Shown here one piece after another: positions 28,522-53,263 of a stretch of DNA of 64,000 bases. How positions within the stretch are numbered: position 1 is the first letter of the stretch; every line of letters starts with the position of its first letter. Source of the stretch: Clostridiales bacterium (lineage in GTDB: Bacteria; Bacillota; Clostridia; Oscillospirales; Oscillospiraceae). The notes below the pieces were generated by a model. The model saw only the letters and a list, made by a program, of their open reading frames with translations. It had not been told where the DNA came from and made no database searches. Made by a program: the position numbers and the translations under genes. The stretch covers positions 24,089 to 88,088 of the forward strand of contig JAJUGN010000002.1 of the NCBI GenBank assembly GCA_029265975.1, in the 5' to 3' direction.

Positions 28522-28533
28522 TATTGTTCTCCG

Positions 28534-30313: not shown

Positions 30314-30492
30314 TAATTAATTATTTCCAGTTTTGCCATCAGATCTAAGCTAACAGACTGTAAAATTCCGCGCAAGCCCCCCGGGGGGATAAGAAGGCGA
30401 ACATATCAACTAAGAACAAAAATTTCATAATATATTCCGTATTATTCGACGAATCGCTCAAAAACCCCGCCCGGAACATTAGGCGGGAAAAC

Positions 30493-30677: not shown

Positions 30678-30686
30678 TTCCGTGCG

Positions 30687-31256: not shown

Positions 31257-31269
31257 ACTTATTTCTCCT

Positions 31270-34126: not shown

Positions 34127-37100
34127 TACAGCGATTCCTCGATTCTGTCTTCAAGCTCCAGAAACGTCTTTTTTATTTCCGCGATCTGCTCGTCGGACGC
34201 TTTCCAGTAGCCTCGTTTATAGTACTCCATCATTTGCTCGAGTATGTTCATGTAGGCGTGGGGGTTGTTTTCCGAAAGCCTTCTGCGCATGTCTTCGTCC
34301 TCTACATAAGCCCTGTGCAAATCGTCGTATATCCACTCCTCTACGCTTCCGGTGGTCGCGGCCAGCCCCATCACGTTTTCAAACCTCTCGGCGATTTTCT
34401 GCGTTCCGTGGTATTTTGATTTGAGCATGGCGTCTATCCACTTTGGATTAAGCACCCGGGTGCGTATCCCTCGGTTGATGGATTTGTCAACCGTTTCCGT
34501 CAGGACCCTGTCGCCGGTAGTATCGGTTATATACATCGCGGCCTTTTTCCCGCGCACCATTTCGACCGATTTTGAAAGTCCTCCGAAATATTCGAAATAG
34601 TGGTCGAGATCCGTTATTTCGTACTCCTGGTTGTCGCGTATCTGCGAAACGATGTCTACGCTTTTCAGGTTCGTTTCGTAGAGTCCGCTTACGTCTTTTC
34701 CGTGGGACGAGCGGTTGTAAACGTATTTGAGGCTGGTCAGGAACTGGCTGCCGATTTGGTTTTCGCTTTCCCATGCCTTCGTTTCGATGATGGTTGTAAT
34801 GCCCGTCCCGTATTCGCCTTCCTTAGGGCCGAATATTCTTGAAACGCAAAGCTTTTCGGCCTCCTTCTCATCGTAGCCCTCGTCGACAAGCTTTTCGAAA
34901 ATTTTCCTTGAGTGCGCCTTGAAGTAGTTCTGCCCCTCGTCCTCCTCCAGTTCGTAAAGCAGATGCAGTATGTCGTCGAGATTGTTTATGAGATTGGGGA
35001 ACATATCCCTGAAAAAACCGCAGATATTCACGGTGACGTCAATTCTGGGCCGGCCGAGCTCCTCGATGGGTATAATCTCAAGCTTAGGCTCCCAGAGCGA
35101 GCTCTTTTTGTCGAGCCTTATTCCGAGGTAGCCGAGTATCTGCGAGAAGGTCTCGCCCTGCGTGCGGGAGGTTTCCAGCCCCCAGAGAATAACCGCGGCG
35201 GAATCGGGATAAACGCCGTTTTCGGTCTTATAGGTCTTTATCGTGTTTTCTGCTATCTTTACGCCGCGCTCGAACGCCGTGCGGGAAGGGACAAGACGCT
35301 GGTCGAACTGGTAAAGATTCGTTCCGCTCGGAAGGATGTCCGGATTCCTGTAAATGTCGCCGGCCTGCTTCGCCTGCGTATATCCCCCGGAGAGCGCGTG
35401 GACAAGCCCCTCGAGCTCGCGGTTTGAAAGCGCCCTTTCATACACGGCCCTGCCGTATTCGAGCGTCGCCCTGTAATCCTCCGTTTTTCTGTCGGGCAGC
35501 TTTCCGTTTTCAAAGTAGGCCTTGAAAACGGCGTCGGCCGCCTCCTCATATTCCCTTATCTTCACGAAATCGCCGTTTTCCTCCAGAGCCTCGATATCGT
35601 CGCCGCGCTCCGCCGCGCATAGCGCCCGCAGGGAAACTATTCCGTTCCTGCTGTATCTGAGTAGCCCCTTCACATATTCGCGCGCCTCCTCTTCGGTATA
35701 GCCGGTGCCGATGACGTGGAGGCCGCTCGGGATAAGGCTTGTGTTCATCCTGTAAAGCTCGGCCTCTATTTCCTCGAGGTCTTCCGGCAAGTTGAGGGAC
35801 GCCGCAGCCTTGCGTATGTTTTCAAGCACGTCCTTCGAGGCCGCGGGAGAAAGCGCAAGCGAATGGCGGTAGTCGTCTACCAGAGCGGCAAGCGCCGCGT
35901 AGTCGCCGTAAAGCCTTCCCGGCACGAAGACCGGAGGCTGATAGCTGATTATTTGCGCGTGCGAACGCCGTTTTGCAATCATAGCCTCCGAGGGGTTGCC
36001 GCAGTAATACAGATAGATATGAGGCAGGCCTCCTATCAGCATGTCGGGGTAGCACTCTCCGCTCATGCCGCACTCCTTGCCCTTCAGAAATTCGAGCGTT
36101 CCGTGAGTTCCGACATGTATTACGGCGTCGGCTTTGAACTCGTCCCTTAAATACTTGTAGAAAGCCAGGTACTGGTGATGCGGCGGCAGCGTTTTGTCAT
36201 GGTACAGCTTATCCTGCTCCTCGTGCAGGCCTCTCGAGGGCTGAAGCCCTATAAGTACCTTGCCGCTTAAAATGGCGGGAATGAGAAAATCCCCGTTTTC
36301 GCCCGTCATTATGCGCCCGCCGGGCTTGCCCCAGCTTTCCTCGATAAGGGCTCGCTCGGGCAGCGTTTCGTAATATTCCATATACTTTTTCAGGGGATAT
36401 CTTATCATTTCAGGGCTCTCGTCCGAGTAGCGTCCGGAGTTTACGAGCTTTCCGGCGCAAAACTCGCTCATGAGGGTCTCTGCGGAAAGCTCGTCGTTAT
36501 CGAAGCCCGATTCCCTGAGCTTTTTAAGGATGCTCTCTACGGATTTGAAGGTGTCGAGAAAGGCGCCGCCGAAGAGATTCCCTTCGCCCGGCGGGTAGTT
36601 ATAGCATATTATCGCTATCCTTTTTTCCGACGCGGGTTTTTTAGAAAGCGCTATGTAGCTTTTTGCGGTTTCTGCAAGGCGCTTGAGGCGCTCGGGGATT
36701 ATTTCAAGCTCGTTCAAAGTAACGTCGAACTTTTCGTTCAGGATGGGCTCGCCTTTTGCGGCGACCGGGAAGGTTTCAATCGCGCCGTCGAATTCCGGCA
36801 GCATAACGGATATCAAAACCTCGGAGGCGGTGCTTCCCTGAACCGACGCCTTCCATTCCTCAGCGGTTCGGTGCGATATGAACATCGGGTGGAAATACGG
36901 CGCGTCGATTTCGGAAAGAAGATCGGTGCCGGCCTTTATGTTCCCTCCCATCGGCCCCGCGCTGAGTCTGAAGGACATGGTATTTACAATCAAGTCGGGC
37001 TTCTGGGGCAGGGTTTTCGTAAGAATGGCATGCAAAGCGCCCGACTCGAGGTCGCTTGTGCCGGATATGGCCACGGGAAGCACGTTTGCAAACTCAAGGA

Positions 37101-37827
37101 AGCTCTCCTGGATCGCCGCTATCGCGCCGGAATAGTCCATAGGGTAAATGTGCCCGTAAAACAGAAGGGCTATGACGGGCTTTTTTTCGTCGTAGGGATA
37201 ATCGGCGGTAAAATCGGCGCCGGACTTGTAAAATTTCATGGTCCTGGGATCGCAGAGAGCGGAAGACGGGACCTCCCGCGCGTCCTCAGGCTTCGGAAGG
37301 CTCCTCGCCCCGCCGTAATCGCGCAGAATAAGGTACAGCATGTTTAGAATGTTGGCGTAATCCGCGACGTGGAAGTACTTGCAGATCTGGCTGTAATTTT
37401 TCATGTCGCGCATTTTGCCGGGCATGATTTTCCCCATCTTCTCGGCCATGTCCCGCATTTTTCTCATAGCGTTCATGTCGGGCTTTACGGCCCCGCCCCC
37501 CGATTTCATCGAATCCGCTGTAAAATCGCCAAGGCGAAGGTACTCGCGGCCCGCGTTGCCGTAGGGCACTATGTTGCCGGGGCATTTCTCAAGCCCCCCG
37601 AGCACGGCTTTAATGACTTCGGGACCGGCACCCATGAGATCGACGAACACAAAATCGCTGCCGGCGATATCCTCGCTCATCAGGCCGAGCTTTTGCTCGG
37701 AATATTCAGAGAGCGCGTTGTATATTCTCAGCTCGAGTACGCCCCACGATAAATCGTTTACCGCTTTTTCCGCCCTGATCAGGCAGGCGATGGCGGGAGA
37801 CGAGACCGATATAAATGTGAGCTTCAT
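34126..37827 (-). CDS. cobN: CobN-like cobaltochelatase large subunit (1233 aa)
   Basis: [75 protein letters not shown]. Confidence 0.95.
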
Positions 37828-38618
37828 TTTTTCACCACTCTTTTCGCGTAAAATACCGGTTTCTCAGTTTCCTTGTCGCGCATTATTTCGGCCTCAACCC
37901 TGAAAACGTCCTCCAGAATGCCGTCGCTTATCACCTTCCAGGGATCCCCCTGCCGGTAGATTTTCTTATCTCTGAGCACGATAAGCTCGTCTGAATACCG
38001 CGCCGCGTGATTCATGTCGTGAAGCACCATTACGATGGTAATGCCGTCTTCGCTGTTCAGGCGTCTCACAAGCTCCATGATCTCAAGCTGGTGGGATATG
38101 TCAAGGTATGTGGTGGGCTCGTCGAGCAGGAGCACCTCCGGCTTCTGCGCTACGGCCATGGCAATCAGCGCGCGCTGACGCTCTCCGCCGGACAGGGAGT
38201 TGAGCTTTCTGTCCCTGAGCTCAGCCGTCGCGGTTTTCTCGAGCGCCCATTCGACGATCTTCTCGTCATCGGAGCGCTGCCCTTCCCACCACTTTTTGTG
38301 CGCGAAACGCCCGTACCGAACAAGCGTTACTACCGATACGTCTGTCATGCAGGAGTTGCTCTGGCCGAGGACGGCCATCTTCCGGGCGACCAGCTTAGTG
38401 TTGGTCCTGAAAATATTGCGGCCTTCGAGGAAAACACTGCCGCCTGACGGCTTCAGATTTCTGCTCATCGCTCTTATGAGCGTGGTTTTGCCGCAGCCGT
38501 TGGGCCCGATTATAGAATAGATTTTGCCTTTCTCAATGCTGAGGCTGATGTCCGAAAGAATTTGGTCGTCCTTATAGGCGACGCTCAGATTTTCGACTTT
38601 TATTACAGCTTCGCTCAT
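37824..38618 (-). CDS. btuD: Cobalamin/iron-siderophore-type ABC ATPase
   Basis: IIGPNGCGKTTLIRAMSRNLKPSGGSV; LSGGERQRALIAMA; under a B12 riboswitch. Confidence 0.85.
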   Translation of the reverse strand: MSEAVIKVENLSVAYKDDQILSDISLSIEKGKIYSIIGPNGCGKTTLIRAMSRNLKPSGGSVFLEGRNIFRTNTKLVARKMAVLGQSNSCMTDVSVVTLVRYGRFAHKKWWEGQRSDDEKIVEWALEKTATAELRDRKLNSLSGGERQRALIAMAVAQKPEVLLLDEPTTYLDISHQLEIMELVRRLNSEDGITIVMVLHDMNHAARYSDELIVLRDKKIYRQGDPWKVISDGILEDVFRVEAEIMRDKETEKPVFYAKRVVKK

Positions 38619-38625
38619 TATACCC

Positions 38626-39621
38626 CTACTTTCTCAGGAGATAGAGGAAAAACGGAACGCCAAGTATGGCCATTATAATGCCTACGGGTATCTCCGTCGG
38701 GCTGAAAACCGTTCTCGCAAAGGTATCGCTGAACATGACCAGCGCCGAGCCCAGCAGCGCCGAGGACGGGAAAAGGTATTTATGATCGTTTCCGGAAATG
38801 AGCCTGACGCTGTGAGGCACGATAAGCCCAACGAAGCCAAGGAGGCCGACGGCGCTGACCGCGCTCGCCGCCAGAAGCGCGGCCAGAGCGGTAAAACCGA
38901 GACGCGTGGCTTCGACGTTCAGCCCGAGCCCTCTCGCCACGTCGTCCCCTAGCACCAGTATGTTCATTTTTTCGGAAAGCAGAAGCGTGACCGCTACGCC
39001 CACAATTGAATAGGGCAGCACCGTTACGACCTCGGGCCAGCTCCTGGCGGAGAGGCTGCCGTTCATAAACGTCAAGGCCCCGTGAACCCTGTCGCTGAAA
39101 AATACGAGCGTGGCAGAGATCCCTGCGCTGAAAAGCGCCGAAACGGCGACGCCGGCAAGTATTATCCTGGTAGGTTCTATGCCGCCCTTCCACGCGAGGC
39201 TGTATATTATCACAGCCGCTAGCATGGCCCCGAAAAAAGCTGCGACGGGGACGAAGTGCTGGTACTGCGGAAGTATAACGAGTATGAATATCCCGAAAAG
39301 TCCCGCGCCGCTGCTTATGCCTATTATGCTGGGATCCGCCAGCGGGTTTTTCATGACGCCCTGGAGTATGGCACCGGCAAGCGCGAGATTCATCCCCACA
39401 AGACCGCCCAGGATCATGCGCGGCAGCCTGATGTTCCAGATTACCATGCCCTCCACGCTTTTCCGGCTTCCTGCGATTGCGGAAAGCACCTGCCCTATGC
39501 TTATCTTCATGGTTCCCACAATGTTTCCGATGAAAAAAGCTGCTATGACGAGGAAAAGGAGTATAAGCAAAAATAAGATTTTGAATCTTACGGTTTCCCT
39601 GAACGCTGTTTTCTCCATCAC
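38626..39621 (-). CDS. btuC: BtuC/FecCD-type ABC permease
   Basis: RLPRMILGGLVGMNLALAGAILQGVMKNPLADPSIIGISSGAGLFG; FVGLIVPHSVRLISGNDHKYLFP. Confidence 0.88.
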   Translation of the reverse strand: MMEKTAFRETVRFKILFLLILLFLVIAAFFIGNIVGTMKISIGQVLSAIAGSRKSVEGMVIWNIRLPRMILGGLVGMNLALAGAILQGVMKNPLADPSIIGISSGAGLFGIFILVILPQYQHFVPVAAFFGAMLAAVIIYSLAWKGGIEPTRIILAGVAVSALFSAGISATLVFFSDRVHGALTFMNGSLSARSWPEVVTVLPYSIVGVAVTLLLSEKMNILVLGDDVARGLGLNVEATRLGFTALAALLAASAVSAVGLLGFVGLIVPHSVRLISGNDHKYLFPSSALLGSALVMFSDTFARTVFSPTEIPVGIIMAILGVPFFLYLLRK

Positions 39622-40658
39622 TTCACAGCCCCGTATATCTCAGGATAAAGGCTTTTTGCCAGATAGGCTATGGCGTCCACATAATACGGCCCTGCGTTAT
39701 ACAGATAGTACTGCTGGGGCAGATATATTACCCGGCCCTCTTTTATCGCTTTTACCGAGCTCCAGGCGGGATTCGAGGAGAACTGCTTTTCAACGGTCTT
39801 TCTCGCCTCCTCGTTGCTCGATATCATCGTGGTAACCAGAATGTAATCAGGATTCTGCTTGACTATGTACTCGATATCAAGCGGGGTCGTTTCCGAGCCT
39901 ATTGTGTCCGGCGGGAGATTCGAGGCGATGTTTTTCAGCTTGAGTATGCCCGCGATGTCGCCTGCTATGCTGTTGTCGAGCTTTACCGCAAGCGATTTCG
40001 AGGTGACGTAGAGAATGGCGACGCTTGTCTTCTTGTCCGGCAGTTTTTTAACGATCTCGTTTTTTCCGTTAGTGAGCTTCTGTATCTTTGCCTCGGCGGC
40101 GCCGCTCACACCCAGAATCTTTCCGAACACCCTGTACGAGGCGATCACGTCGTCAAAGCTCTTGATATGAGTGACGATGACCTTGAAGCCCATGCTTCTG
40201 AGGGAAGCCGCCGCCACGTTCTGCGTGCCCGCCTGGGCTATGATGAGATCGGGCTTTAAGGCCACTATCGACTCTATGTTTACGGCGTAAACCTGCCCCA
40301 TCTGCGGCAGAGCCTTGATCTCAGCCTCGTACTCCTCTATAATACGCACGTTTTGGCTCACATCCGAGGTGCAGATGGATTTGCCGCCGAGGTCGTACCA
40401 GATATTAAGCGGGGTTCCCGACAAGACCGCTACCTTTTTCGGCTTCGTTTCAATGGTGGTCTCATTTCCGAGAAAATCCTTCACCCTTATGGGATAGGCC
40501 TCTCCCGTGACGGAAATCGAAGCGTTCCCCTGAGAGGAGGCCGTGGGCGCGGCGGAAGGCGTTGCAGTGCTTTGGGCGGGCGTATTGTTGGAAGTGCAGC
40601 CTAGCAGGGAGAGAAGCATGCAGGCCGCGAGAATAAAAACGACGGATCTTTGTTTCAT
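39618..40658 (-). CDS. btuF: BtuF/FepB-type corrinoid/siderophore substrate-binding lipoprotein
   Basis: Starts MKQRSVVFILAACMLLSLLGCTSN; KVAVLSGTPLNIWYDLGGKSICTSDV...IESIVALKPDLIIAQAGTQN; immediately downstream of a B12 riboswitch. Confidence 0.85.
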   Translation of the reverse strand: MKQRSVVFILAACMLLSLLGCTSNNTPAQSTATPSAAPTASSQGNASISVTGEAYPIRVKDFLGNETTIETKPKKVAVLSGTPLNIWYDLGGKSICTSDVSQNVRIIEEYEAEIKALPQMGQVYAVNIESIVALKPDLIIAQAGTQNVAAASLRSMGFKVIVTHIKSFDDVIASYRVFGKILGVSGAAEAKIQKLTNGKNEIVKKLPDKKTSVAILYVTSKSLAVKLDNSIAGDIAGILKLKNIASNLPPDTIGSETTPLDIEYIVKQNPDYILVTTMISSNEEARKTVEKQFSSNPAWSSVKAIKEGRVIYLPQQYYLYNAGPYYVDAIAYLAKSLYPEIYGAVK

Positions 40659-40684
40659 ATGATGTTTCTCCTTGAAAAAAATAA

Positions 40685-40715
40685 TAAAAAGGCGGCCCTG
40701 CGGCCGCCTTAATTC
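40685..40715 (-). terminator. Expression-platform terminator of the minus-strand B12 riboswitch
   Basis: aaggcggccctgcggccgcctt, T-run on the minus strand. Confidence 0.75.
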
Positions 40716-40789
40716 ACAATAATGCAAGTCGATGACAACTTGCAAACACTTATCGCTCAAAACGCTCTGATACACCGCAGGCTTGTTTT

Positions 40790-40958
40790 GAAAAGATACG
40801 AGCAGGTCTCCTGACTTAAGATCATCGCTTCAAGGCGCCTTCTCGGGCTTTCGCCCAATGGCATATACCTGGAAACTCCCTAACACAGTGACGGGTTCGT
40901 TCCGGATTTTAACCGGATTCCCTATTAATTCCCGAAGGAAACTCTGTATCCTGATATG
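40790..40958 (-). promoter_or_regulatory. Cobalamin riboswitch upstream of btuFCD-cobN-chlI-chlD
   Basis: Reverse complement contains agggaatccggttaaaatccggaacg...gtcactg...taagtcaggagacctgctcg (B12 box). Confidence 0.93.
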
Positions 40959-41094
40959 TATTCAATTTTAGACTGATTTTTACACCAGTATAATTTATAT
41001 ATCATACTGCATATAAAGTCAATACCGTCAAGCAAAAACTTTAGCGTTGCCCGGCGGCAAAAAAGTAAAATATTACGCTATTTTAAGGAAGATG

Positions 41095-41123
41095 TTGACA
41101 GAAAAATACGCTTATGCTATTTT
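41095..41123 (+). promoter_or_regulatory. Sigma-A-type promoter of plus-strand B12 riboswitch 1
   Basis: ttgaca - 17 nt - tatttt. Confidence 0.6.
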
Positions 41124-41139
41124 ATACACAAACAGAATA

Positions 41140-41338
41140 GCTTTTGAAGTGTCCCCTTTGGCGCAGGGCCTTTGGGGAAGAATAGGGAATCGGGTGAGAA
41201 TCCCGAACGGAACCGCCGCTGTATGCGTTTTTGGCCGCGCTCGTCGACGAAAGTCGGTCACTGGGAAACTGGGAAGGCAGAGCGCGCGCCGCAGGACGAT
41301 CGTCCTATAAGCGCGAGTCAGAAGACCTGCTTTGAAAC
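41140..41338 (+). promoter_or_regulatory. Cobalamin riboswitch 1 (plus strand)
   Basis: gggaatcgggtgagaatcccgaacggaaccgccgctgta...ggtcactgggaaactgggaaggc...gcgagtcagaagacctgc. Confidence 0.95.
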
Positions 41339-41385
41339 CGCTCCGCCTGCTGGTGCCTTATGGCGGCGCACATCGGATTTGCAGA

Positions 41386-41432
41386 TAAACGGCTGTGATG
41401 ATTTTTTGATTGTCGCATCCGTTTTTTTATTT
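41386..41432 (+). terminator. Expression-platform terminator of riboswitch 1
   Basis: aaacggctgtgatgat-tttttg-attgtcgcatccgttttttt. Confidence 0.65.
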
Positions 41433-41551
41433 TGATTCCTTTCTCATCCCTTTCTCAGGTGCGAACCGGACGCGGTTTGGTCACCCGTCCGGTTCGACGC
41501 CAAATTTAGGCGCCGCCTCTTTTTATTACCGTGGTGACGAGGAAAATGCTT

Positions 41552-42304
41552 ATGGAAGAAAACTTATTTTTTTACGGCAGAAAGGTTTTGCCTTTTTCAA
41601 ACCCCAGTTCAGGCGAAGGCGCGCCGGAAATAGACATCGGCGCGCTCAGGGAGCTTAAGAGCGCGAAGCTGCTCGTCCCCTGCAAGGCGAAGACGAAAGA
41701 ATATGGCACGCGCTATTCGATGTACGGCATCCATATGAAAAACGGAGCGCTTTTTCTTCCGGCGTTTACCTGCCCCGAAGAATTGGAAAAATGGCCCTAC
41801 GAAAAGGACGGGGCGGCCGTTTTTTCCTATGAGGACATCAAGAACAGGGCCATTGACGACTGCCGCGGCTTTTCAGGTATAATCATCAACCCTTTCAGCG
41901 ACTTTCTGATACTCGACATGGATGTGATAAAGCGCATAGACGAAATGCTGGACGGGATTTATATAGAAAGAGTCGAGCACAGCCGATACCTTCAATTATA
42001 TAAACCCGGGCACGGCTATTCGGGGCTTGCCGAGGAAATGAAGCTGTTCTTTGAAAAACACGAGGAGGTTTACAGGGCATATCTTCTGACGGCGAGGGAG
42101 CCGTGGGAAAAGGAGCGCCACTGGCTGCTTCTGATTGACTTTGAGGGGGAGCGGGTGCGTCTGTTTCCCGAGGCGGCCAGGGCGCTTGAACCGCATATCA
42201 GACCGGGGGACCATTTTGAAATAATGAAAGCCGACCGGGAGCTTCTTCGGCTAGCCGCGGAAAAATGCCCCCCGATTTACTCCAGGCTGAAAGCGGAAAA
42301 ATAG
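41552..42304 (+). CDS. SseB-like protein
   Basis: MEENLFFYGRKVLPFSNPSS...KTKEYGTRYSMYGIHMKNGALFLPAFTCPEELEKW...AVFSYEDIKNRAIDD...GIIINPFSDFLIL. Confidence 0.65.
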   Translation: MEENLFFYGRKVLPFSNPSSGEGAPEIDIGALRELKSAKLLVPCKAKTKEYGTRYSMYGIHMKNGALFLPAFTCPEELEKWPYEKDGAAVFSYEDIKNRAIDDCRGFSGIIINPFSDFLILDMDVIKRIDEMLDGIYIERVEHSRYLQLYKPGHGYSGLAEEMKLFFEKHEEVYRAYLLTAREPWEKERHWLLLIDFEGERVRLFPEAARALEPHIRPGDHFEIMKADRELLRLAAEKCPPIYSRLKAEK

Positions 42305-42486
42305 CTGCAAACCAAAACTTAAAAATCAGGAATCGTTTTTTTGCCGATAACCGACCGAACAACGGAGGTTTGGCGGAACGGGGTAAATCCCTTGTCCGCC
42401 GAGCCTCCGTTTGATTATCGCCCCCTAACCTGCGCTTTTGCACTGTGACATTTGCTTCAACAAGGCGGAAAGGAGAGAAATAAGGC

Positions 42487-42651
42487 ATGACGGAAAAAAG
42501 AGTAGAAGAATCAGACAAAGTGATTTTGTGCGAGCAGGAGAAAGCGCTTATCCTCCTTATCCGTCGAATCAAGGGCGGAAAGCTGCGCATCCTCGTCGAA
42601 AGAGGAAAGCCTGTCCGGGTGGAACTGACGCGTAAAAACATAGAGCTTTGA
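42487..42651 (+). CDS. 54-aa DUF2292/YezD-like small protein (paralog 1; absent from the ORF track)
   Basis: MTEKRVEESDKVILCEQEKALILLIRRIKGGKLRILVERGKPVRVELTRKNIEL, RBS aaaggagag upstream; matches 52700-52864. Confidence 0.8.
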   Translation: MTEKRVEESDKVILCEQEKALILLIRRIKGGKLRILVERGKPVRVELTRKNIEL

Positions 42652-42752
42652 TCACGGGCAAATCCTTCGTGCGGCTTTTCGCCAACTCCGGAGAGGCCGT
42701 GAAGCCGGGCGATTGTTATATAAAATAAAACAATAACAAAGGAGGAAAACAA

Positions 42753-44423
42753 ATGCTAATAACCTCAAAAAAGAAAGGCGCTTCAAAAACGCTGGCATTT
42801 CTGCTCGCGCTTTCTCTGCTTGTGGCGTTTTTCCCCGCGATTGCGTCGGCGGCAACATACGGGGACCTCGAGGTCTCCATACCGTCCGGCGAGAACGTCG
42901 CGCTGAGCTATGTCGGCAACTCGGGCACGACTTATACCTTTAACGTCGTATCCGAGATAACGGGCTATTACCCCTCGGTATTCTCTCTCCGGATCGCTCC
43001 GGACGGCGGACATTCGGTATCGAACATCGACGCCACAAACGGGACCATGGTCACGCTGTACGAAGGCACTTATTACCTTGTAACACTTGCTGAAGGCACC
43101 ACTTCCACGATCACAATCACATCCTCCGGCGGCTATACATACGTTCTCAACTGCAGCCAGGCCGACGGCGGCAGCACAGGCTCCGCGAGCGGGATTTACG
43201 CTTTCCTGCCGGCTCCCGGGCAGTATGTCAACGAAGGGCTGACCTCCGGCGGCTGGGGCAGCATTTACACAACGGGGCAGACGGCGGTGAAGAGCCTTGT
43301 CAACAACAAGGTCTCGACGGGCGTGTCTCTCGGCTTCTTCGGAGGCTATGTCGTGCTCGATTACGGAACCCCCGCAAAGGATGCCAGCGGCAACGTGACA
43401 GGCGGCATCTACAACGACAGCACGAACCCCTACGGCGTAGACTTTATCCTTTACGGCAACGCGTTTTCAGGCAACTCCGAGCCGGGCTGCGTCCAGGTTT
43501 CAAAGGACGGCGTCAACTGGTACGACATCGCGGGCTCGAAGTATTACGACAGCGACACGGTGAAAAATTACTATCTCACCTATACCAACCCCACCCCGGC
43601 GGACGACGGCGACTATTCCTACGGCAGGACCCAGACGACATACACGGGCGGCGTCCCCTATACCGGAAGTTCCTCCGGCACGGTGACCTACAACTCCTAC
43701 CACAATCACAGCTGGTTCCCGCTCTACTGCAACTATTTCACTCCGGTGATCCAGTCCCTGGGCGCGCTTGACAAAACTAGCGTACTTCCGTTTGCCGACT
43801 ACACCCGCGACACGACAAACGGCTCGGCGCTGACGATGAGGGGCGTAATGATAGGCGACGCGACGAACACGCAGACGGGCAACTACACCTTCGGCTACTG
43901 CGACGTCCATGCGAACGGCTCGGCGACCTCCACGGCCTACAATCCCTACACGGCGACAGCCAGCACGACCGGCGGAGACCCCATCGACATTTCCTGGGCG
44001 GTCAACTCAAGCGGCGAGCCGGTGTTTCTTGACAGTATCCGATTCATACGAATCTACACCGGCGCCAGGTATATGAACGGCGCCTTCGGCGAAATGTCCA
44101 CCGAGGTCTGCGGCTCCTACCGCGCGACGGGCACGGGCGGCACATCGGGCACCTTCGCGACAGTTGCCGTCGACGGGAACAGCCCGACAAACACCACCGT
44201 GTCAAGTTCGCAGCGTCTCGCTACGATAAGCGTCAGCGCCGGGACGCATACGATAAACGCCAGCAGCTCGGCGACATGTTTCCTGATAAACGGCGCTGCG
44301 GTATCCACACCTTACAGCACCACGATAACCACCGCTCCCAACAGTACTTACTATATGCAGATTATTACTCAGTCGGGCGACGCACAGCCAAGAATAACGG
44401 TACTTAAAATAGTTTCAACCTAA
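42753..44423 (+). CDS. Secreted cell-surface protein (556 aa)
   Basis: Signal peptide; VSLGFFGGYVVLDYGTP...NPYGVDFILYGNAFSGNSEPGCVQVSKDGVNWYDIAGSKYYD. Confidence 0.85.
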   Translation: MLITSKKKGASKTLAFLLALSLLVAFFPAIASAATYGDLEVSIPSGENVALSYVGNSGTTYTFNVVSEITGYYPSVFSLRIAPDGGHSVSNIDATNGTMVTLYEGTYYLVTLAEGTTSTITITSSGGYTYVLNCSQADGGSTGSASGIYAFLPAPGQYVNEGLTSGGWGSIYTTGQTAVKSLVNNKVSTGVSLGFFGGYVVLDYGTPAKDASGNVTGGIYNDSTNPYGVDFILYGNAFSGNSEPGCVQVSKDGVNWYDIAGSKYYDSDTVKNYYLTYTNPTPADDGDYSYGRTQTTYTGGVPYTGSSSGTVTYNSYHNHSWFPLYCNYFTPVIQSLGALDKTSVLPFADYTRDTTNGSALTMRGVMIGDATNTQTGNYTFGYCDVHANGSATSTAYNPYTATASTTGGDPIDISWAVNSSGEPVFLDSIRFIRIYTGARYMNGAFGEMSTEVCGSYRATGTGGTSGTFATVAVDGNSPTNTTVSSSQRLATISVSAGTHTINASSSATCFLINGAAVSTPYSTTITTAPNSTYYMQIITQSGDAQPRITVLKIVST

Positions 44424-44430
44424 GTTTGCG

Positions 44431-44472
44431 ACCCCACAAGATGCGCGGCTTTTCCCGCGCATCTTGCGGGGT
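44431..44472 (+). terminator. Intrinsic terminator between the two surface-protein genes
   Basis: accccacaagatgcgcgg cttttcc cgcgcatcttgcggggt. Confidence 0.75.
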
Positions 44473-44573
44473 GTTCATAATTAGATTTGATAATTAATCG
44501 ATTCTTTTTTGTAAATGCGGATAATCGGACACTGTTTAAAACGGAAAATCTAATATTGAGAGTGATTGAAATT

Positions 44574-47500
44574 ATGGATATAAAAATCAGACTTAAGCGT
44601 ATTGTTTCGCTTGCGCTATGCCTGCTGATGTTCTTGTCGTATCTGCCGGGAGAGCAGGCGCGGGCGACAAGCGACCTCGTTGTGAAATCAAGCGAAAGCG
44701 CCGCCGATTCCTTGACGATGATTCCCGTGAACGGAACTGCATACGGCGTCCCGGTCTATGAGATTTATGTAAGCGCTTCGACGGAGTCGGTCGCGATAAA
44801 GCCGGCGGACAATCAGTTTTTGAGAACTTATCTTGAGTATTTAAATTCCGGCGGATATATACGCAAGTCCATTCTGCCCGAATGGTCGAAATTTGCCTGG
44901 TGGTATGGCTTTGGAGATTTCAACTCCGAAGCCGACTTGCTTAATTATTTTGGGTATTCCACAAGGGCAGACTTTATATCGGACTGGGGCTATCCGAATG
45001 ATTTTGACTCTTTTTTAAACGATAACCTGGGAGTGAGCTCCGAAGCTAAAATGCCGGATGAACTGCCTTCGAGTCAGTTTAACTTTAAGGTCGTGTCCGG
45101 TTCCTCAGATTATTACATCTATTCTTTGACCCCATCATCCTTTAACAGAACGGATGCAAGCATCTGGAACAGCGCCGCCATGGCCGGGGCGAAGGCGCAG
45201 TATTACGACAGCGCGGCGGAATATGCCTTCGTGTATATATCTCATTACGCTCATCCGAGTTCTATGCTCAAAGAACAGGCGACGTTAGATAAGGTTCTGA
45301 TAATAAAAATAGGCGGCACTCCGCTGAATGCAGGAAACGCCCCGGTAATATTGGGTTTAAGCACAGCATCCGCCTCTACGAGGGCAAACAGCACATATTT
45401 GATTTCGCTCGGCTCTGTATTTTATGATATTGATAACGACCCGCTTACATACACGGTCAGCGTTAACGGAGCGGCGGCGACAGCGGCCAGCGCAAATTAC
45501 AGCTTTACACCGCCGTCTACGGGCTCATACTCGCTGGTTTTCAAAGCCAGCGACGGAACACAGGAGTCCCCCGCCTATACTCTGAATCTGACCGCCGTTG
45601 ACGACAGCGGACTGAAGGCGGCTATCGACGCGGCGCCGGCTTCCGGATATTTCACCTCCGGCGACCGTTTCAACGGGAAAACCACCAGCGTGAACGGCTT
45701 CTGGGCGGACATGCAGTCCAATCTCAATACGGCGAATTCGGTTTACAGCAATTCAGCCTCCACACAGCTTCTGGTGGATAACTCGACGTACGCGCTGAAC
45801 GCCTCAGTGAGCCTTCTGATACCGCTCAGCAGGGTCAACGCCACTGCGCTTTATGAGGCGATAAACTATAAACCGTTTATTTACGGTGAAAACGGAGAAA
45901 AGATATATACCGACGCGAGCTACTATTCGTCGTCGTCATGGAACGCGTATCAGAGCGCGCTGACCGCGTCGGAAAAAATGCTCTCCTCGCTTTACGACTC
46001 GGGCGGAAACCCGACGGAGCTGAATAAGGCCTCTTACCAGGCAAGCGTAAACGACCAGGCCGCGGCCCTTGCGGCGGCCAGGAATTCGCTTGACAGAAGG
46101 GCGGACGAATACACCCTCTGGGACGCGCAGTCGGCCTATGACGGACTCTCGGTGCTGGCAAACAAACTGTTCAAACCCGCAAATATGAACGCCTCAAACT
46201 ATACGGCGCAGAGCTGGGCGGATTTCATCGCCGCGAGGGACGAGGCGCTCGCATGGTGTGCAAGTCACGGCAGACCGACTTTTAACGTCGGAAAGAACGA
46301 GGCAAAGGAATACGTTGCCGTTTATAAAAAATTATGGGACGCCTGCTATAAGGGCTTGAGCCCCTCGGCCGGCTCGATTTCGGTATCCGTGACCGTTAGT
46401 GACGCTTACGCCGCCAAAAAGAACGCATCGCCGGTGGACATTGTCGGAACCCGCACGCTTACGCTGAGCGGGGGTGCCACCATAAAGGACGCCCTTGGTT
46501 TCAGTTGCAGCGCTCTTGAAAGCAGAATAGACAGCAGCAGGATTGCAGACTGCCGCATAGGCGTATACTTAAACGGCGTTTTCCTGCTCAATCCGGCTAC
46601 CGGCGGAATAAGCGCCCCCGAAAGCCTGAATTTTGACGATGTGAAGCTCCACGACGGCGACGAGCTGCTGGTCGTCTATATGGCGGTGCCGACATATTAT
46701 AATCTGAGCGGGTCTCTGAGCTGCTACGGGGTTTCCGAAGTCGGCTCGTATGTGCGCTATCTTGAGGCTTCCCAAAAGGAGCTTTCCGCCGAGGCCGGAA
46801 AGGCCTTCAGCATGACCGTACTTGCGCAGTCGGCTCTGCCGAGCAAGTATTCCGGAGAGAAGAGCGCCGTCTCCGGAGCTTCGGTTTTCGTCAGCGATTG
46901 CTGCCAGACGGAGGCGGCGGCCCGGTCCGCTGCCGCGGTTAAAAACAGCGGAGCCGTTAGCGGCTCTGACGGCGGCTTCACTCTCAAGCTGTATTCGGAA
47001 GGCTGGTACGCGCTGAGCATACTTGAAAAAGGAGACTACGGCGGGATATCCTGCGGAAGCACAGTCATCGTGCATATCACCCCTTCGCTGAACCCGTCGG
47101 CAGTGAAGGCAGAGCTCCAGGCGGAGCTTGACGCGGCCTACGCCGCCTGTGATGAGGATATTTTCAGCGCAGACAGCTGGAAAAGCGTAAAAAGCTATTA
47201 TCAGAACGGCACCAAGGCAATAAGCGAGGCCGCCACGCTCGGCGACGCCTGGAAAGCCAAGAAAACGGCGGTTGAGGGTATAAATGCGCTCAGGGAGGCT
47301 GCCTCCTCCGACAACACAAAGAAAATCTCCTCCTTCCGCACCCTGCTTAACGAGCTGCCGGACAACACTTCGCTCATAGACAAAAGCCTCCAGGGCAAGG
47401 TCGACGCTCTTATAACAGCCTACGGTACGATGAGCGAATACCAGATATCCCAGCTCAGCGGCATTGAGCAGAACAAATACAAGGCAATTTTCGCCGCAAA

Positions 47501-50500
47501 TCAGGCCGGGCTGCCCGAGGCCGTGAATTACACGCTCAAGTTCCAGGTCGAGGCCGATACCGAAGAGGCGACGGCCGCGATCAGATCCATGTACGCCTAT
47601 CTTAGGTCAAATCCGGCCAGCGAGGACAAGCTGACGCAGGAAACCGGCGGCGGCAAGCTCAAACCGCTCGGAGCTTTCAATTCGACGTCCATGACGGAAA
47701 CTGCGTCCACTGCCCTTAAACCTATAGTCCTGACCGCGGACGTTACCTATGCCAGCTACTATCAGATACGGGACGCTCAGGACCATGTGCTTACTGGCGG
47801 CAACTGGCGGATTACTCACGAGGGCTTCTCCTTCTCTCAGATAACCGATTCCGGCTGCAAAAGCGGCAAGGCAAAGGTTTATGTGGGCGGCGTCGCTTAT
47901 GAGATAAAGGAGTACAATATCCAGGGCCTTGACAAAAACGGCGTTAGCTGGAGCCCTCTGACGCATTTCAATAAGACCGACTACCTGGGGCTTAAAAAGG
48001 ACTGCGTCAATCTTACCTTTGACAACGCCGTCATGGGATTCAGCATGCCCTTCAGCAACGTGACCATAACCGCGGTCTGGGGGCCCGTGACAAGCGAAAG
48101 CGATCTGAACGCGGCAAAGGAAGCCTCGGCGGCGTCGCTTACCGCGGTATACTCCTCCTACAGCCAGGCAAATTACACGGAGGAGAACTGGGCGGCTCTT
48201 GCCGCGGCCTATAACAGCGGCATCACAAATATTTCCGGCGCCGCCAGCTTCTACGGCGTCGCTTCGGCCAGAAAGGCCGCAATCGCCGCAATGGCCGCCG
48301 TTCCGACAAAGGAAACGGCAAATGCGCCGACAGATTTCGGAAGAGCCGTAGGCGAGGTCTACATCACCGTCGAGAACACCACCTTTACTGCGCCTGCCAA
48401 CGGCGACACGCCGGGATGGACTGGCACGCTCCTGAGCGGGTGGCACATCCTTTATGAAAAAGATACTATGATGACCTGCGTTCTCAGAGCCCTGGAAGCG
48501 CGGGGCTGCACCTGGACCGGAACCGGCAGCTCGGATAAATACGGCATAACCTATCTCTCCTCGATCACAAAGTCCGGAGGCGGAAGGCTCGGGGAGTTCG
48601 ACGGGTATTCGGGTTCCGGCTGGATGGGGACGCTCAACGACTGGTTCGTAAACGAGGGCTTCCAGCATTTTTCCGTTACAGGCGGCGGGCTTTCAAACGG
48701 CGATGAAATCCGCATAATGTTCACAACGAACCTGGGCGCGGACATCGGGGGCACCTGGGGGAACGCCGACACGTCGCTTGACGCCCTTTCGATAAGCTCC
48801 GGTACGCTCATGCCGGCCTTTAAGAATACAAAGCTGAGCTATGGGCTTATAATATCCGGCCCCTCCCAAAGCCTTAAGGTAACCCCGAGGGCGAAAAACA
48901 AAAACTATCTCGTCAAAACCTTCCTCAACAGATACAATGACGACTCGGCGTACTACAAGCGGACGGAAACCCTTACCGTCAAGCCCGGAGACACTATCTA
49001 TGTGGGCTGCGGAGAGCGGGAATGGCCTTCCATGAACAATCAGGAAACCGAGGCCATCGACTATACCGGAACGAGATACACAATCAAGGTTTACGGCAGC
49101 AGGGCCGATTTCACAAAGGATCTCATCAATTCGCTGCCCGCATCGTCTGGCATGACGCTGTCAAATTATTCGGGCTTCAAAGAAGAAATAACGTACGCAC
49201 GCGAAATTTATGAGAGCCTGACCTCGTCTCAGAAGGGCGAAGTAACGAACCTTGCCGTTTTAACCTCGGCGGAGGAAAGGCTGAAGTTTTACGAGGATAT
49301 CGCCAACGTGAAAAAGCTGCTCGCCGCGCTTCCCAAAGCTTCCGAAATCACCGCCTCGAATATGAGCTCGGTCGCGGCGCAGATTCTTGCCGTAGATTCC
49401 GCGTACAAAGCGCTTTCGGCGGACCAGCGGCTCTACATAACGGTTGCGATAGTCACAAACTATAACAACGCAGTCCAAAGGCTGAACGAGCTGGGGGCTT
49501 TTTCCCCGGGCGCCTCTCCCTCCGCAATCACGGGAAGCGATAAGGCGCCGGAAAGCTCCGGCGGGGCTGTCAAGCTGACTCCAAGCGTCTCGGCGTCCGA
49601 CGGGAAGGCTGCTGTAAGCATGAGCGCCTCGGATATAACCGAAGCAATTGCCAGCGCTAAAAGGGGCGGAAGCGATACCATCGTAATCGCCCCCAAGGTG
49701 AGCGGGACTGCATCGAAGATGAGCGTCGAGCTGCCGAAGACTTCGCTGGGCGCGATAGCCTCGGAGGCGGGGGCGGCGCTGAGAGTGGATACTCCTTTGG
49801 GCAGCGTGAGCATTCCTAACGAGGCGCTGGCCTCGATATCAAATCAGGCGTCAGGAGGAACTGTCTCCGTCAGCATGAGCGAGGTCCCGCCCGCGACTCT
49901 GACTGAGGCGCAAAGGAGCGCCGTCGGAAGCGAAAGGGTATACGACATTTCGATCATGAGCGGAGGCAGCCACATCTCGAGCTTCGGCGACGGCAGCGTA
50001 ACTATCTCTCTGCCTTACACGCTTAAAAACGGTGAAACTAGCGATAACGTCAAGGTCTGGTACCTGGACGGCAAGGGCGAGCTCCGGCAGATGAGCTGCA
50101 CATACGACAAAACGACTGGCCTTGCCACCTTCACAACGACACATCTTTCATACTACGTCGTGGGTTATTCGACGGCATGGACAAATCCGTTTGCAGACGT
50201 CAGCAAAGACGCTTGGTACTTCGACGCGGTGAGGTACGCGTCTCAGAGGAAGCTTATGAGCGGCACATCGTCGACGAGCTTTGAACCCGAGAGCAATATG
50301 ACGCGGGCGATGGTCGTTGCAGTTCTCTACCGCCTGGAGGGGAAGCCGGGCATCAGCGGAACGAACGCTTTTTCCGATGTGGAAAGCGGTCAGTGGTATA
50401 CGGAGGCTGTCGCCTGGGCAAGCGCCAATAAGATTGTCAGTGGCTACGGCGGGGGTATATTCGGCACAAACGACAGCATAACGAGAGAGCAGCTCGCGAC

Positions 50501-50735
50501 CATTCTTTACAACTACGCAAAATACAAGGGCCTCGACGTGACGAAGACGGCCGATCTCAGCGCGTACACGGACGGCAAATGCATAAGCGCCTGGGCGGAC
50601 AGCGCCATAAAATGGGCGGTTGCCGAAGGCCTCATAAAAGGAATGAGCGACAAGACGCTCGAACCCTCCGCCACCGCCACCCGCGCCCAGGTAGCCACCA
50701 TACTGATGCGCTTTGCGGAAAAAACCAGGCTGTAA
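44574..50735 (+). CDS. Very large S-layer-anchored surface protein with FIVAR-like repeats, DUF4430/transcobalamin-like domain(s) and three C-terminal SLH domains
   Basis: Signal peptide MDIKIRLKRIVSLALCLLMFLSYLPGEQARA; GYSGSGWMGTLNDWFVNEGFQHFSVTGGGLSNGDEIRIMFTTNLGADIGG; C-terminal SLH motifs FADVSKDAWYFDAVRYASQRKLMSG... and two more. Confidence 0.9.
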   Translation: MDIKIRLKRIVSLALCLLMFLSYLPGEQARATSDLVVKSSESAADSLTMIPVNGTAYGVPVYEIYVSASTESVAIKPADNQFLRTYLEYLNSGGYIRKSILPEWSKFAWWYGFGDFNSEADLLNYFGYSTRADFISDWGYPNDFDSFLNDNLGVSSEAKMPDELPSSQFNFKVVSGSSDYYIYSLTPSSFNRTDASIWNSAAMAGAKAQYYDSAAEYAFVYISHYAHPSSMLKEQATLDKVLIIKIGGTPLNAGNAPVILGLSTASASTRANSTYLISLGSVFYDIDNDPLTYTVSVNGAAATAASANYSFTPPSTGSYSLVFKASDGTQESPAYTLNLTAVDDSGLKAAIDAAPASGYFTSGDRFNGKTTSVNGFWADMQSNLNTANSVYSNSASTQLLVDNSTYALNASVSLLIPLSRVNATALYEAINYKPFIYGENGEKIYTDASYYSSSSWNAYQSALTASEKMLSSLYDSGGNPTELNKASYQASVNDQAAALAAARNSLDRRADEYTLWDAQSAYDGLSVLANKLFKPANMNASNYTAQSWADFIAARDEALAWCASHGRPTFNVGKNEAKEYVAVYKKLWDACYKGLSPSAGSISVSVTVSDAYAAKKNASPVDIVGTRTLTLSGGATIKDALGFSCSALESRIDSSRIADCRIGVYLNGVFLLNPATGGISAPESLNFDDVKLHDGDELLVVYMAVPTYYNLSGSLSCYGVSEVGSYVRYLEASQKELSAEAGKAFSMTVLAQSALPSKYSGEKSAVSGASVFVSDCCQTEAAARSAAAVKNSGAVSGSDGGFTLKLYSEGWYALSILEKGDYGGISCGSTVIVHITPSLNPSAVKAELQAELDAAYAACDEDIFSADSWKSVKSYYQNGTKAISEAATLGDAWKAKKTAVEGINALREAASSDNTKKISSFRTLLNELPDNTSLIDKSLQGKVDALITAYGTMSEYQISQLSGIEQNKYKAIFAANQAGLPEAVNYTLKFQVEADTEEATAAIRSMYAYLRSNPASEDKLTQETGGGKLKPLGAFNSTSMTETASTALKPIVLTADVTYASYYQIRDAQDHVLTGGNWRITHEGFSFSQITDSGCKSGKAKVYVGGVAYEIKEYNIQGLDKNGVSWSPLTHFNKTDYLGLKKDCVNLTFDNAVMGFSMPFSNVTITAVWGPVTSESDLNAAKEASAASLTAVYSSYSQANYTEENWAALAAAYNSGITNISGAASFYGVASARKAAIAAMAAVPTKETANAPTDFGRAVGEVYITVENTTFTAPANGDTPGWTGTLLSGWHILYEKDTMMTCVLRALEARGCTWTGTGSSDKYGITYLSSITKSGGGRLGEFDGYSGSGWMGTLNDWFVNEGFQHFSVTGGGLSNGDEIRIMFTTNLGADIGGTWGNADTSLDALSISSGTLMPAFKNTKLSYGLIISGPSQSLKVTPRAKNKNYLVKTFLNRYNDDSAYYKRTETLTVKPGDTIYVGCGEREWPSMNNQETEAIDYTGTRYTIKVYGSRADFTKDLINSLPASSGMTLSNYSGFKEEITYAREIYESLTSSQKGEVTNLAVLTSAEERLKFYEDIANVKKLLAALPKASEITASNMSSVAAQILAVDSAYKALSADQRLYITVAIVTNYNNAVQRLNELGAFSPGASPSAITGSDKAPESSGGAVKLTPSVSASDGKAAVSMSASDITEAIASAKRGGSDTIVIAPKVSGTASKMSVELPKTSLGAIASEAGAALRVDTPLGSVSIPNEALASISNQASGGTVSVSMSEVPPATLTEAQRSAVGSERVYDISIMSGGSHISSFGDGSVTISLPYTLKNGETSDNVKVWYLDGKGELRQMSCTYDKTTGLATFTTTHLSYYVVGYSTAWTNPFADVSKDAWYFDAVRYASQRKLMSGTSSTSFEPESNMTRAMVVAVLYRLEGKPGISGTNAFSDVESGQWYTEAVAWASANKIVSGYGGGIFGTNDSITREQLATILYNYAKYKGLDVTKTADLSAYTDGKCISAWADSAIKWAVAEGLIKGMSDKTLEPSATATRAQVATILMRFAEKTRL

Positions 50736-50932: not shown

Positions 50933-51919
50933 ATGAAAATCTTAGCCAACATAACAAACACCGAAATAGATACGGACCGTTTCTCGGACGGCGAGGACAT
51001 TCGGGGCTTTTGCCGTACGCACGGCCTGGACGGGCTGGAGCTGCTCCCCGCTGACGGCAATATGCTCGGTAAAATCCCCGCGGATTTGGTGACAGGCCTC
51101 CACCTATCATATTACAGCTGCTGGGTGGACTTCTGGAACGGCGACGAGGAAGGGATCCTGTCCGAATTCGGCACGAGAGATGAGGCGGCGCGCGTTTTCG
51201 GAGGCGGCAGGCAGGCGATAATCGACCTATACAGATCGCAGCTGGATTTTGCCGAGAGCATAGGAGCCGAGTATGTGGTGTTCCATGTGTCGGACGTCTC
51301 AATTGAAGAAACGCTCTCCTACAAAATGCGGCACGGCGATGAAGAGGTTGCGGAAGCCTCTCTAGAGCTTATAAATGCCGCGCTCGACGGCAAGCCGTAC
51401 TCTTTCCGCTTTCTGATAGAAAATCTATGGTGGCCGGGCTTTACGATGAGAAGCCCGGGCATAACGCGAAGGATGATGGAAGGAATCGCATTCGATAAAA
51501 AGGGCATCATGCTGGACATAGGCCATCTGATGCACACCAATCCCCATCTCAAATCGCAGGAAGAGGGCGTCGGGTTTATACGCGCCGTCCTGGACTCGCA
51601 CGGGGATTTGTGCGATTATATAAAAGGCGTCCACCTGCACCAGAGCCTGAGCGGCGATTATATAAGGCAGCTTATTGCCAGCCCTCCGGAGATAAAAGGC
51701 GCATACCTCGACAGGCTGTGCGAGGCCTATAAGCATGTCCTCAGCATCGATACGCACCGACCTTTCACCGGAAGCGGAATACTGGGGCTTATAAAGCAGA
51801 TAGACCCCGAATTTCTCACCTACGAATTCATGTCGGGCAGCCGGGAGGAACTGGAAAATTATATTGAAAGCCAGAATGATGCTTTGTTTGATCTTAGACC
51901 CGCAACGGGATTATTTTGA
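50933..51919 (+). CDS. TIM-barrel sugar phosphate isomerase/epimerase-like protein (AP endonuclease 2 family)
   Basis: GLDGLELLPADG...RSQLDFAESIGAEYVVFHVSDVSIEE...RFLIENLWWPGF...IMLDIGHLMHTNP. Confidence 0.75.
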   Translation: MKILANITNTEIDTDRFSDGEDIRGFCRTHGLDGLELLPADGNMLGKIPADLVTGLHLSYYSCWVDFWNGDEEGILSEFGTRDEAARVFGGGRQAIIDLYRSQLDFAESIGAEYVVFHVSDVSIEETLSYKMRHGDEEVAEASLELINAALDGKPYSFRFLIENLWWPGFTMRSPGITRRMMEGIAFDKKGIMLDIGHLMHTNPHLKSQEEGVGFIRAVLDSHGDLCDYIKGVHLHQSLSGDYIRQLIASPPEIKGAYLDRLCEAYKHVLSIDTHRPFTGSGILGLIKQIDPEFLTYEFMSGSREELENYIESQNDALFDLRPATGLF

Positions 51920-51963
51920 AGCGCCTGAAGCACTATTTTGCGCGAAGTGGTGAAACGCAAATT

Positions 51964-52221
51964 ATGGGAAACGAAACACCGAAACTCTCGCACGCAACAA
52001 TTGAATATGCCGAAATATTAACCCGTGAGGCTAGATTTGCGCAGGACCACAGGAGCGACACGGACGAGGAGCTCCTGCGCTATTTGAGGTCGTATGTGCA
52101 AGAACTCGGCTTTGTCCCAAAAAAGAGCATGATACCGGGGTTTTCGTACATTAAATGCCGCCTGGGACCCTGGCCCAGGGTTTTGGAAAAGGCGGGGCTT
52201 AAAGAGAGAAAAAGAAAGTAG
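51964..52221 (+). CDS. Small protein with a homing-endonuclease-associated (HNH_repeat-like) motif
   Basis: DEELLRYLRSYVQELGFVPKKSMIPGFSYIKCRLGPWPRVLEKAGLKERKRK. Confidence 0.6.
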   Translation: MGNETPKLSHATIEYAEILTREARFAQDHRSDTDEELLRYLRSYVQELGFVPKKSMIPGFSYIKCRLGPWPRVLEKAGLKERKRK

Positions 52222-52296: not shown

Positions 52297-52310
52297 TAAT
52301 CAAAGAAATT

Positions 52311-52512
52311 GAATAGCTTTCAAAGTGTTCCTCAAGGCGCAGGGCCTTGGGGGAAGAATAGATAATCGGGTTAGAATCCCGAGCGGAACCGCCGCTGTAT
52401 GCGCGAGGCCGCGCTCGTCGACGAAAGTCGGTCACTGGGAAACCGGGAAGGCAGAGCGCGCGCCGCAGGACTAATGTCCTATAAGCGCGAGCCAGAAGAC
52501 CTGCTTTGAAAC
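52311..52512 (+). promoter_or_regulatory. Cobalamin riboswitch 2 (plus strand), near-identical to riboswitch 1
   Basis: ataatcgggttagaatcccgagcggaaccgccgctgta...ggtcactgggaaaccgggaaggc...gcgagccagaagacctgc. Confidence 0.95.
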
Positions 52513-52551
52513 AAGCCGCCCGCGGCATTCGGGATCGGCGCTGTTTTGCAG

Positions 52552-52592
52552 AAATACGGCTGCGACAATCTTTTCGGTTGCCGCAGTATTTT
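52552..52592 (+). terminator. Expression-platform terminator of riboswitch 2
   Basis: aaatacggctgcgacaatcttttcggttgccgcagtatttt. Confidence 0.65.
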
Positions 52593-52699
52593 ATTTCGGT
52601 CCCTTTTCAGCCGGCATCGGAATGCATCCGCGGAGGCCCCGCGATTTGCCCGGCGCGCCGCCGAAAACGCGAGCCGAATTAATAATGTGTCTATGGAGA

Positions 52700-52864
52700 A
52701 TGAATATGGAAGAAAAGAAAACGGAGGCCGGGCTTTTGCTCAGCGAGCAGGAAGCCAGGCTGATAAAGATGATACGCGATATAAAGTTCGGCGAACTGCA
52801 CATCTTTGTATCTGAGGGGAAACCCGTCCGGGTTGAGGAAATAAAAAAGAGCATAAAGCTCTGA
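52700..52864 (+). CDS. 54-aa DUF2292/YezD-like small protein (paralog 2)
   Basis: MNMEEKKTEAGLLLSEQEARLIKMIRDIKFGELHIFVSEGKPVRVEEIKKSIKL; only CDS directly downstream of riboswitch 2. Confidence 0.85.
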   Translation: MNMEEKKTEAGLLLSEQEARLIKMIRDIKFGELHIFVSEGKPVRVEEIKKSIKL

Positions 52865-52999
52865 TTAAATGCCCCCGCTTTGTTGGTTTGCTGACAGATT
52901 TTTTAGGCGCTTTCCGGATGGGCTATCCGATACGCGCGCCTGGGGTGCTTTTTCATTGCCGCGCCGCTGAAATAAATAATTGTACTGTTTTCATTATGG

Positions 53000-53252: not shown

Positions 53253-53263
53253 TATTTGATATA

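Follow-up and report, generated by a model that had tools for sequence, protein, structure and literature searches.

A cobalamin riboswitch-linked candidate corrinoid-capture module at the surface of a monoderm bacterium

The locus described here raises the question of whether a monoderm bacterium gathers corrinoids at its cell surface before passing them to a membrane importer. It lies in a 64-kb stretch of DNA (here referred to as the window) that is part of a fragmented genome assembly of 1.97 Mb, 89% complete. The original prediction placed between divergent B12 riboswitches a minus-strand btuFCD operon and, on the plus strand, an SseB-like gene, a DUF2292-like gene, a gene for a 556-aa secreted protein, and a gene for an S-layer-homology (SLH)-anchored protein of ~2,050 aa with a DUF4430 domain; cobamides were proposed to be bound by the surface proteins and handed to BtuF. 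The features that we recovered are as follows (window coordinates).

31270..34126, minus strand: chelatase ATPase subunits resembling ChlI/ChlD (33092-34126 and 31270-33102)
34126..37827, minus strand: CobN/BchH-like chelatase subunit, 3' of btuFCD (PF02514, E 0; under equivalog cut-offs)
37824..38618, minus strand: BtuD-type ATPase (PF00005, E 1.6e-33)
38626..39621, minus strand: BtuC/FecCD-type permease (PF01032, E 1.5e-92)
39618..40658, minus strand: BtuF-type substrate-binding lipoprotein (PF01497, E 9e-36; likely ATG at 40658; lipobox LLGC)
40689..40710, minus strand: intrinsic terminator separating btuF from riboswitch 1 (9-bp stem with a U-rich tail)
40784..40962, minus strand: cobalamin riboswitch 1, 5' of btuF (RF00174, 104 bits)
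41095..41123, plus strand: promoter-like TTGACA-17-TATTTT just 5' of riboswitch 2 (consensus match only)
41130..41348, plus strand: cobalamin riboswitch 2, 5' of the candidate capture genes (RF00174, 83.3 bits)
about 41388..41428, plus strand: terminator hairpin with U-run, 3' of aptamer 2 (sequence; fold z -2.25)
41531..42304, plus strand: SseB-like protein (PF14581, E 8e-16, and PF07179, E 5e-8; N and C domains)
42487..42651, plus strand: DUF2292/YezD-like microprotein, 54 aa (ORF, ribosome-binding site, by-eye alignment with 52707-52864)
42753..44423, plus strand: BtuH-family secreted protein of 556 aa and candidate binder of corrinoids (PDB and profile matches)
43143..44159, plus strand: BtuH B12-binding-type domain, aa 131-469 (Q157, N236, and F238 align with BtuH2 contacts)
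44574..50735, plus strand: giant SLH surface protein, 2,053 aa (likely ATG at 44574; PF00395, E 7e-34)
48348..48758, plus strand: predicted transcobalamin-like beta-grasp (DUF4430-like) domain (family and predicted fold)
50160..50714, plus strand: SLH repeats, cell-wall anchor (SLH profile matches)
50933..51919, plus strand: AP_endonuc_2 TIM barrel (PF01261, E 8e-9)
51916..52221, plus strand: HNH_repeat protein (PF18780, E 1.3e-9)
52306..52522, plus strand: cobalamin riboswitch 3 (RF00174, 72.8 bits)
52707..52864, plus strand: DUF2292 microprotein, 52 aa, behind riboswitch 3 (ORF 52622-52864 passes PF10055, E 3.9e-6; start from sequence)

The predicted gene content was borne out. Matches to Peripla_BP_2, FecCD, and ABC ATPase profiles support btuFCD at the level of fold family, with all three proteins scoring under every substrate-specific NCBIfam equivalog cut-off. 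The SseB-like protein carries both the N and C domains of its family, and the 54-aa ORF, on which Pfam makes no call, aligns by eye with the 52-aa protein that passes the DUF2292 profile. The ~2,050-aa surface protein proved to be 2,053 aa long with a clear SLH match (2,082 aa if the ORF is read from a TTG, 44487-50735), and the 556-aa ORF begins with a Sec-type signal sequence, judged by eye. The minus-strand gene run also extends past btuFCD into the CobN/ChlI/ChlD-like genes, which the original prediction overlooked. These chelatase genes and the Ni/Co-type ABC transporter genes beyond them occupy 24486-37827 (minus strand), and the same genome contains cbiMNQO-like genes as well as an anaerobic cbi operon, whose gene names other than cbiD were assigned by eye from sequence starts. 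On the plus strand, the order is SseB-like, DUF2292-like, 556-aa secreted, giant SLH, TIM barrel, and HNH_repeat, and a second, congeneric species (L014/L015) has the same gene order. The TIM barrel was considered as CbiR and rejected (NF041277, 12.2 bits against a cut-off of 105; no match at E 0.001), and a PDB search found no relative of it. Clostridium aminobutyricum too has SseB-like and TIM-barrel genes grouped about a cobalamin riboswitch (L037:16922-19699; 27% and 42% identity), a recurrence that suggests unrecognised corrinoid functions.

The divergent riboswitches were likewise recovered, bracketing the locus, each with a predicted expression platform formed by an intrinsic terminator (hairpin and U-run) 3' of the aptamer. 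All three aptamers in the window exceed the RF00174 gathering score of 31.5 bits, and the whole genome contains six cobalamin riboswitches. The third in the window had been overlooked; its region (52306-52864) includes a terminator-like hairpin, and the only recognisable gene 3' of it encodes the 52-aa DUF2292 microprotein. DUF2292-like microproteins also lie behind riboswitches in L015, L025, and L033. Control by B12 is best supported for btuF, which has an aptamer and a terminator, and for the SseB-like gene. For the 556-aa protein, such control rests on co-transcription across about 1.4 kb and on conservation in other loci, and a strong hairpin in the gap between this gene and that of the giant SLH protein makes it less secure for the latter.

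The 556-aa protein has no match in Pfam or NCBIfam. A phmmer search of the PDB returned 8blw_B (E 1.8e-16) and 7biz_A, the structure of BtuH2 with B12 (E 5.3e-15), and a profile built from six relatives returned the same two entries (8blw, 5.7e-29; 7biz, 7.9e-27) and nothing else. We take 8blw_B, annotated as a YncE family protein of 663 aa, to be BtuG1H on the basis of its length, two-part architecture, and the description in PMC8941943. By sequence homology, the middle domain of the 556-aa protein is a member of the BtuH family, an identity missed by the original prediction. BtuH2 contacts the nucleotide loop of B12 through Q333 and N399 (and F401) and the corrin side through Y510, W511, and W577 (PMC8941943). 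With BtuH2 residues numbered as chain index plus 100, these positions and L578 fall on the expected letters, and an alignment of 84 homologues pairs Q157, N236, and F238 of the window protein with Q333, N399, and F401. Q333 is kept in 47 of 49 Bacillota-clade and 35 of 35 Bacteroidota-clade sequences, and N399 is invariant (49/49 and 35/35), although these conserved residues could alternatively be structural. The corrin-amide contacts are absent in the window protein, in which Y510 and W511 fall in a deletion and W577 is replaced by A444. W577 is kept in 26 of 35 Bacteroidota-clade sequences, and alanine is the commonest residue in the other clade. Since Y510 and W511 vary within the Bacteroidota clade too, their loss argues against identical ligand geometry and not against homology, and the window domain probably has an altered corrin face.

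For the giant SLH protein, the predicted DUF4430 domain fell short on Pfam score and stood on family membership and predicted fold. The domain scored 14.4 bits against PF14478, below the gathering cut-off of 23.8 (E 0.05-0.08), while among 22 aligned relatives taken from equivalent proteins, 15 matched with an E-value of 0.1 or lower (1.9e-9 for the best). An AlphaFold model built on the 22-sequence alignment (pLDDT 86.9) had as its top three PDB fold matches 3kq4 (intrinsic factor) and 7qbg_A and 7qbg_C (transcobalamin), all with probability 1.00, followed by generic beta-grasp structures at 0.63 or less. The E-values of these matches are modest (0.002-0.006; TM 0.47-0.52), so that support for the fold is good and the ligand is unproven. 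A sequence search of the PDB with the domain gave no convincing match; fold comparison alone worked. A second DUF4430 further toward the N terminus (46230-46800) was considered and rejected, having no Pfam match.

To place these proteins in a wider setting, we drew on a pattern-plus-tblastn scan of 84,980 genomes, which yielded 248 BtuH relatives, 80 of which were fetched. Forty-seven loci from Bacillota and related organisms were annotated with profiles derived from the window and its sister species, using our own ORF calls and not curated genes. DUF4430 was present in the BtuH locus in 44 of the 47; BtuH shared a single chain with DUF4430 in 22 and with SLH in 14. These fusions argue that the BtuH, DUF4430, and SLH parts work together. 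The same profiles detected DUF4430, toroid, or SLH domains in none of 33 Bacteroidota-clade loci. The adjacency and fusions, along with the fold match to intrinsic factor and transcobalamin, make it unlikely that the giant protein is an ordinary S-layer protein or adhesin that neighbours a B12 gene by chance, leaving the BtuH protein as the whole system; what speaks for such a reading is the sub-threshold Pfam score of the window DUF4430, the hairpin between the BtuH and SLH genes, and the frequency of SLH proteins in this genome. As a separate observation, HNH_repeat (PF18780) proteins recur in BtuH loci (L016, L017, L018, L035, L063, and L092), often encoded between the riboswitch and the BtuH gene.

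Co-occurrence of these families with B12 riboswitches, proposed as a check alongside the original prediction, was assessed by scanning 31 Bacillota loci directly. In 20, a same-strand cobalamin riboswitch lies no further than 3 kb upstream, counted from the BtuH gene or from the cluster of genes that leads into it, compared to a chance expectation of about 0.1 for 31 loci (from 204 riboswitches in about 109 Mb); because the scanned loci are related, this represents conserved linkage and not 20 independent events. Of the other 11, four start no more than about 210 bases from the end of a contig and are uninformative, and seven with an intact upstream flank had no riboswitch above threshold. Beyond these 31 loci, an upstream riboswitch is present in the window, L014, L017, and L019 and was found in neither L016 nor L018. 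The set that recurs in Bacillota thus comprises a cobalamin riboswitch, a BtuH domain, DUF4430, and SLH. In a tree of BtuH domains, a single branch (100/99) splits the Bacillota type from the Bacteroidota type, and the window domain is nearest to those of L014 and Clostridium thermobutyricum, so that nothing in the tree points to recent acquisition from Bacteroides. We assigned the clade labels ourselves, and one row labelled Bacillota is a Bathyarchaeota bin (L100), in which a Bacillota-type BtuH domain starts at L100:7614.

Might the surface proteins instead bind another ligand, such as a precursor of cobamides, a different tetrapyrrole, or a metal chelate, with the BtuH fold reused? The corrin-facing pocket residues of BtuH2 differ here, and the divergent operon contains the chelatase genes with Ni/Co-type transporter genes beyond them. 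We nevertheless judge this improbable, given that, in many families, the riboswitches linked to these genes belong to the cobalamin class, and that the glutamine and asparagine that contact the nucleotide loop are kept almost everywhere, as expected for complete cobamides.

Surface capture, as originally predicted, is supported, mainly by findings that the prediction lacked: BtuH homology, conserved riboswitch linkage, and the transcobalamin-like predicted fold of the DUF4430 domain. The proposed hand-off to BtuF fares less well: btuF and btuC lie beside BtuH in 2 of the 47 loci, namely the window and its sister species, compared to at least 16 loci with EcfT within the fetched flank. In many loci, the BtuH/SLH genes lead into genes for a toroid-SLH protein (a toroid occurs in 25 of the 47), a membrane-anchored DUF4430 protein, EcfT, and EcfAA'-S. 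EcfT, EcfAA', and an S component, as in CbrT-type ECF cobalamin transporters (eLife 2018, PMC5997447), are thus the usual importer candidate in related loci. The sister species carries the toroid-SLH/DUF4430/ECF set directly behind riboswitch 3, and the window genome carries such a module on another contig (C45). It is accordingly a serious possibility, which we rate somewhat short of even, that surface capture takes place but delivers corrinoid to the membrane-anchored DUF4430 protein and the EcfT-EcfAA'-S importer, the pairing with btuFCD in this genus being incidental co-regulation. On the other side, the ECF genes of this genome lie apart from the window locus, a search for a cobalamin riboswitch ahead of the C45 module came up empty, and btuFCD is riboswitch-led and divergent from the capture genes. 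With btuFCD co-located and co-regulated and ECF the usual partner, the corrinoid could go to either, and hand-off to BtuF is possibly secondary. Riboswitch 3 of the window genome is followed only by the DUF2292 microprotein and by a repeat element bounded by palindromes (52888-53259), which occupies the site of the sister species' ECF operon; the element has several copies in the genome (also 14382-14648 in the window) and is found at L021:11673-11987 and L022:9426-9959.

Several findings count against surface capture: the altered corrin-side contacts, the modest statistics of the fold match, the hairpin between the BtuH and SLH genes, the seven loci without a riboswitch, and the cbi operon, by which the organism may make its own cobamides. 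In addition, the toroid that would complete a transcobalamin pocket is not in the window locus. The model of a related toroid matches transcobalamin among other toroids, and a specifically transcobalamin-like assignment was set aside, as the model fits terpene cyclases equally well; PF01122 was touched weakly by only 2 of 25 such toroids. In relatives of the same family as the window organism, toroid and DUF4430 share one polypeptide (L017:1-2412 and L018:2178-9311), with the domains ordered as they are in intrinsic factor and transcobalamin.

The two homologies, the riboswitches with their terminators, and the conserved gene linkage lead us to regard it as probable that the plus-strand genes constitute a cobalamin riboswitch-linked surface module of a monoderm that binds corrinoid and then passes it to an importer. 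The ligand binding, physical partnership, and direction of hand-off that we infer would run as follows. At low intracellular cobamide, riboswitch 2 would allow read-through of its terminator, and the downstream genes would be made. The secreted BtuH-family protein would bind cobamides extracellularly, probably by the nucleotide loop, as Bacteroides BtuH2 does, and the SLH protein would hold its transcobalamin-like beta-grasp domain in the cell wall next to it. Bound corrinoid would then reach a membrane importer, either the BtuFCD encoded alongside or the DUF4430/ECF module encoded on the other contig. The genome encodes an adenosylcobalamin-dependent ribonucleotide reductase (NrdJ); with the B12-binding domain PF02310 found nowhere in the genome, NrdJ is the cobamide user identified. 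NrdJ and the cbi operon together indicate that the organism uses cobamide and may make its own, in which case capture would be a saving rather than a necessity. More speculatively, many Bacillota may operate a B12 relay across the cell wall, comparable to the Isd relay that carries heme in staphylococci, a joint claim that we advance only tentatively and hold to be doubtful as a whole. BtuH and a split intrinsic factor-like pair, with toroid and beta-grasp on separate S-layer proteins, would close around corrinoids, which would pass from the S-layer to the membrane-anchored DUF4430 protein and on to an ECF or BtuFCD importer.

Parts of this picture have precedents. BtuH1, BtuH2, and BtuG1H of Bacteroides thetaiotaomicron (PMC8941943; PDB 7biz, 8blw) have the homologous B12-binding domain, with Q333, N399, and F401 aligned, and are likewise surface or secreted proteins in cobalamin riboswitch-regulated transport loci. 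The Bacteroidota proteins, lipoproteins of the outer membrane, carry PKD or beta-propeller domains and work with TonB-dependent BtuB, whereas the domain here belongs to a monoderm protein that is secreted or part of the S-layer, has DUF4430 and SLH partners, and falls in a separate clade. Putnam et al. (2022), who characterised BtuH, also pointed out homologues of it in three Firmicutes; one of these lies close to an ECF-like transporter of cobamides (PMC8941943). Surface scavenging of B12 by bacterial transcobalamin-like proteins was predicted by Burroughs et al. in 2007 (PMC1796856). The passages of that paper considered here describe SLBB (DUF4430) proteins that resemble the present system in having a beta-grasp, partners with an alpha/alpha toroid or a beta-propeller, and operons that include CbiO/CbiQ-like (ECF) genes; the BtuH domain, SLH anchoring, and the riboswitch go unmentioned in them. 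Compared to the proteins described there, the window beta-grasp is divergent and sits beside btuFCD, in a genome with a cbi operon rather than one lacking biosynthesis. The DUF4430-like domain is predicted to have the same fold as animal intrinsic factor and transcobalamin, but toroid and beta-grasp are here on separate proteins and contigs. Our search, which covered mainly openly available literature, found no paper joining BtuH with SLH/DUF4430 proteins in monoderms. What is new is the union of BtuH with DUF4430/SLH in a conserved, riboswitch-linked monoderm system.

How monoderms concentrate scarce cobamides at their surface is little known, whereas the capture proteins of Bacteroides are well studied. 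The system described here provides a candidate that is present in culturable strains, including Flavonifractor plautii, C. aminobutyricum, Paenibacillus koleovorans, and Lactonifactor longoviformis. It brings together two B12-binding folds that were earlier treated separately, BtuH and the transcobalamin-like beta-grasp, and it bears on the proposal that animal intrinsic factor originated in Gram-positive bacteria.
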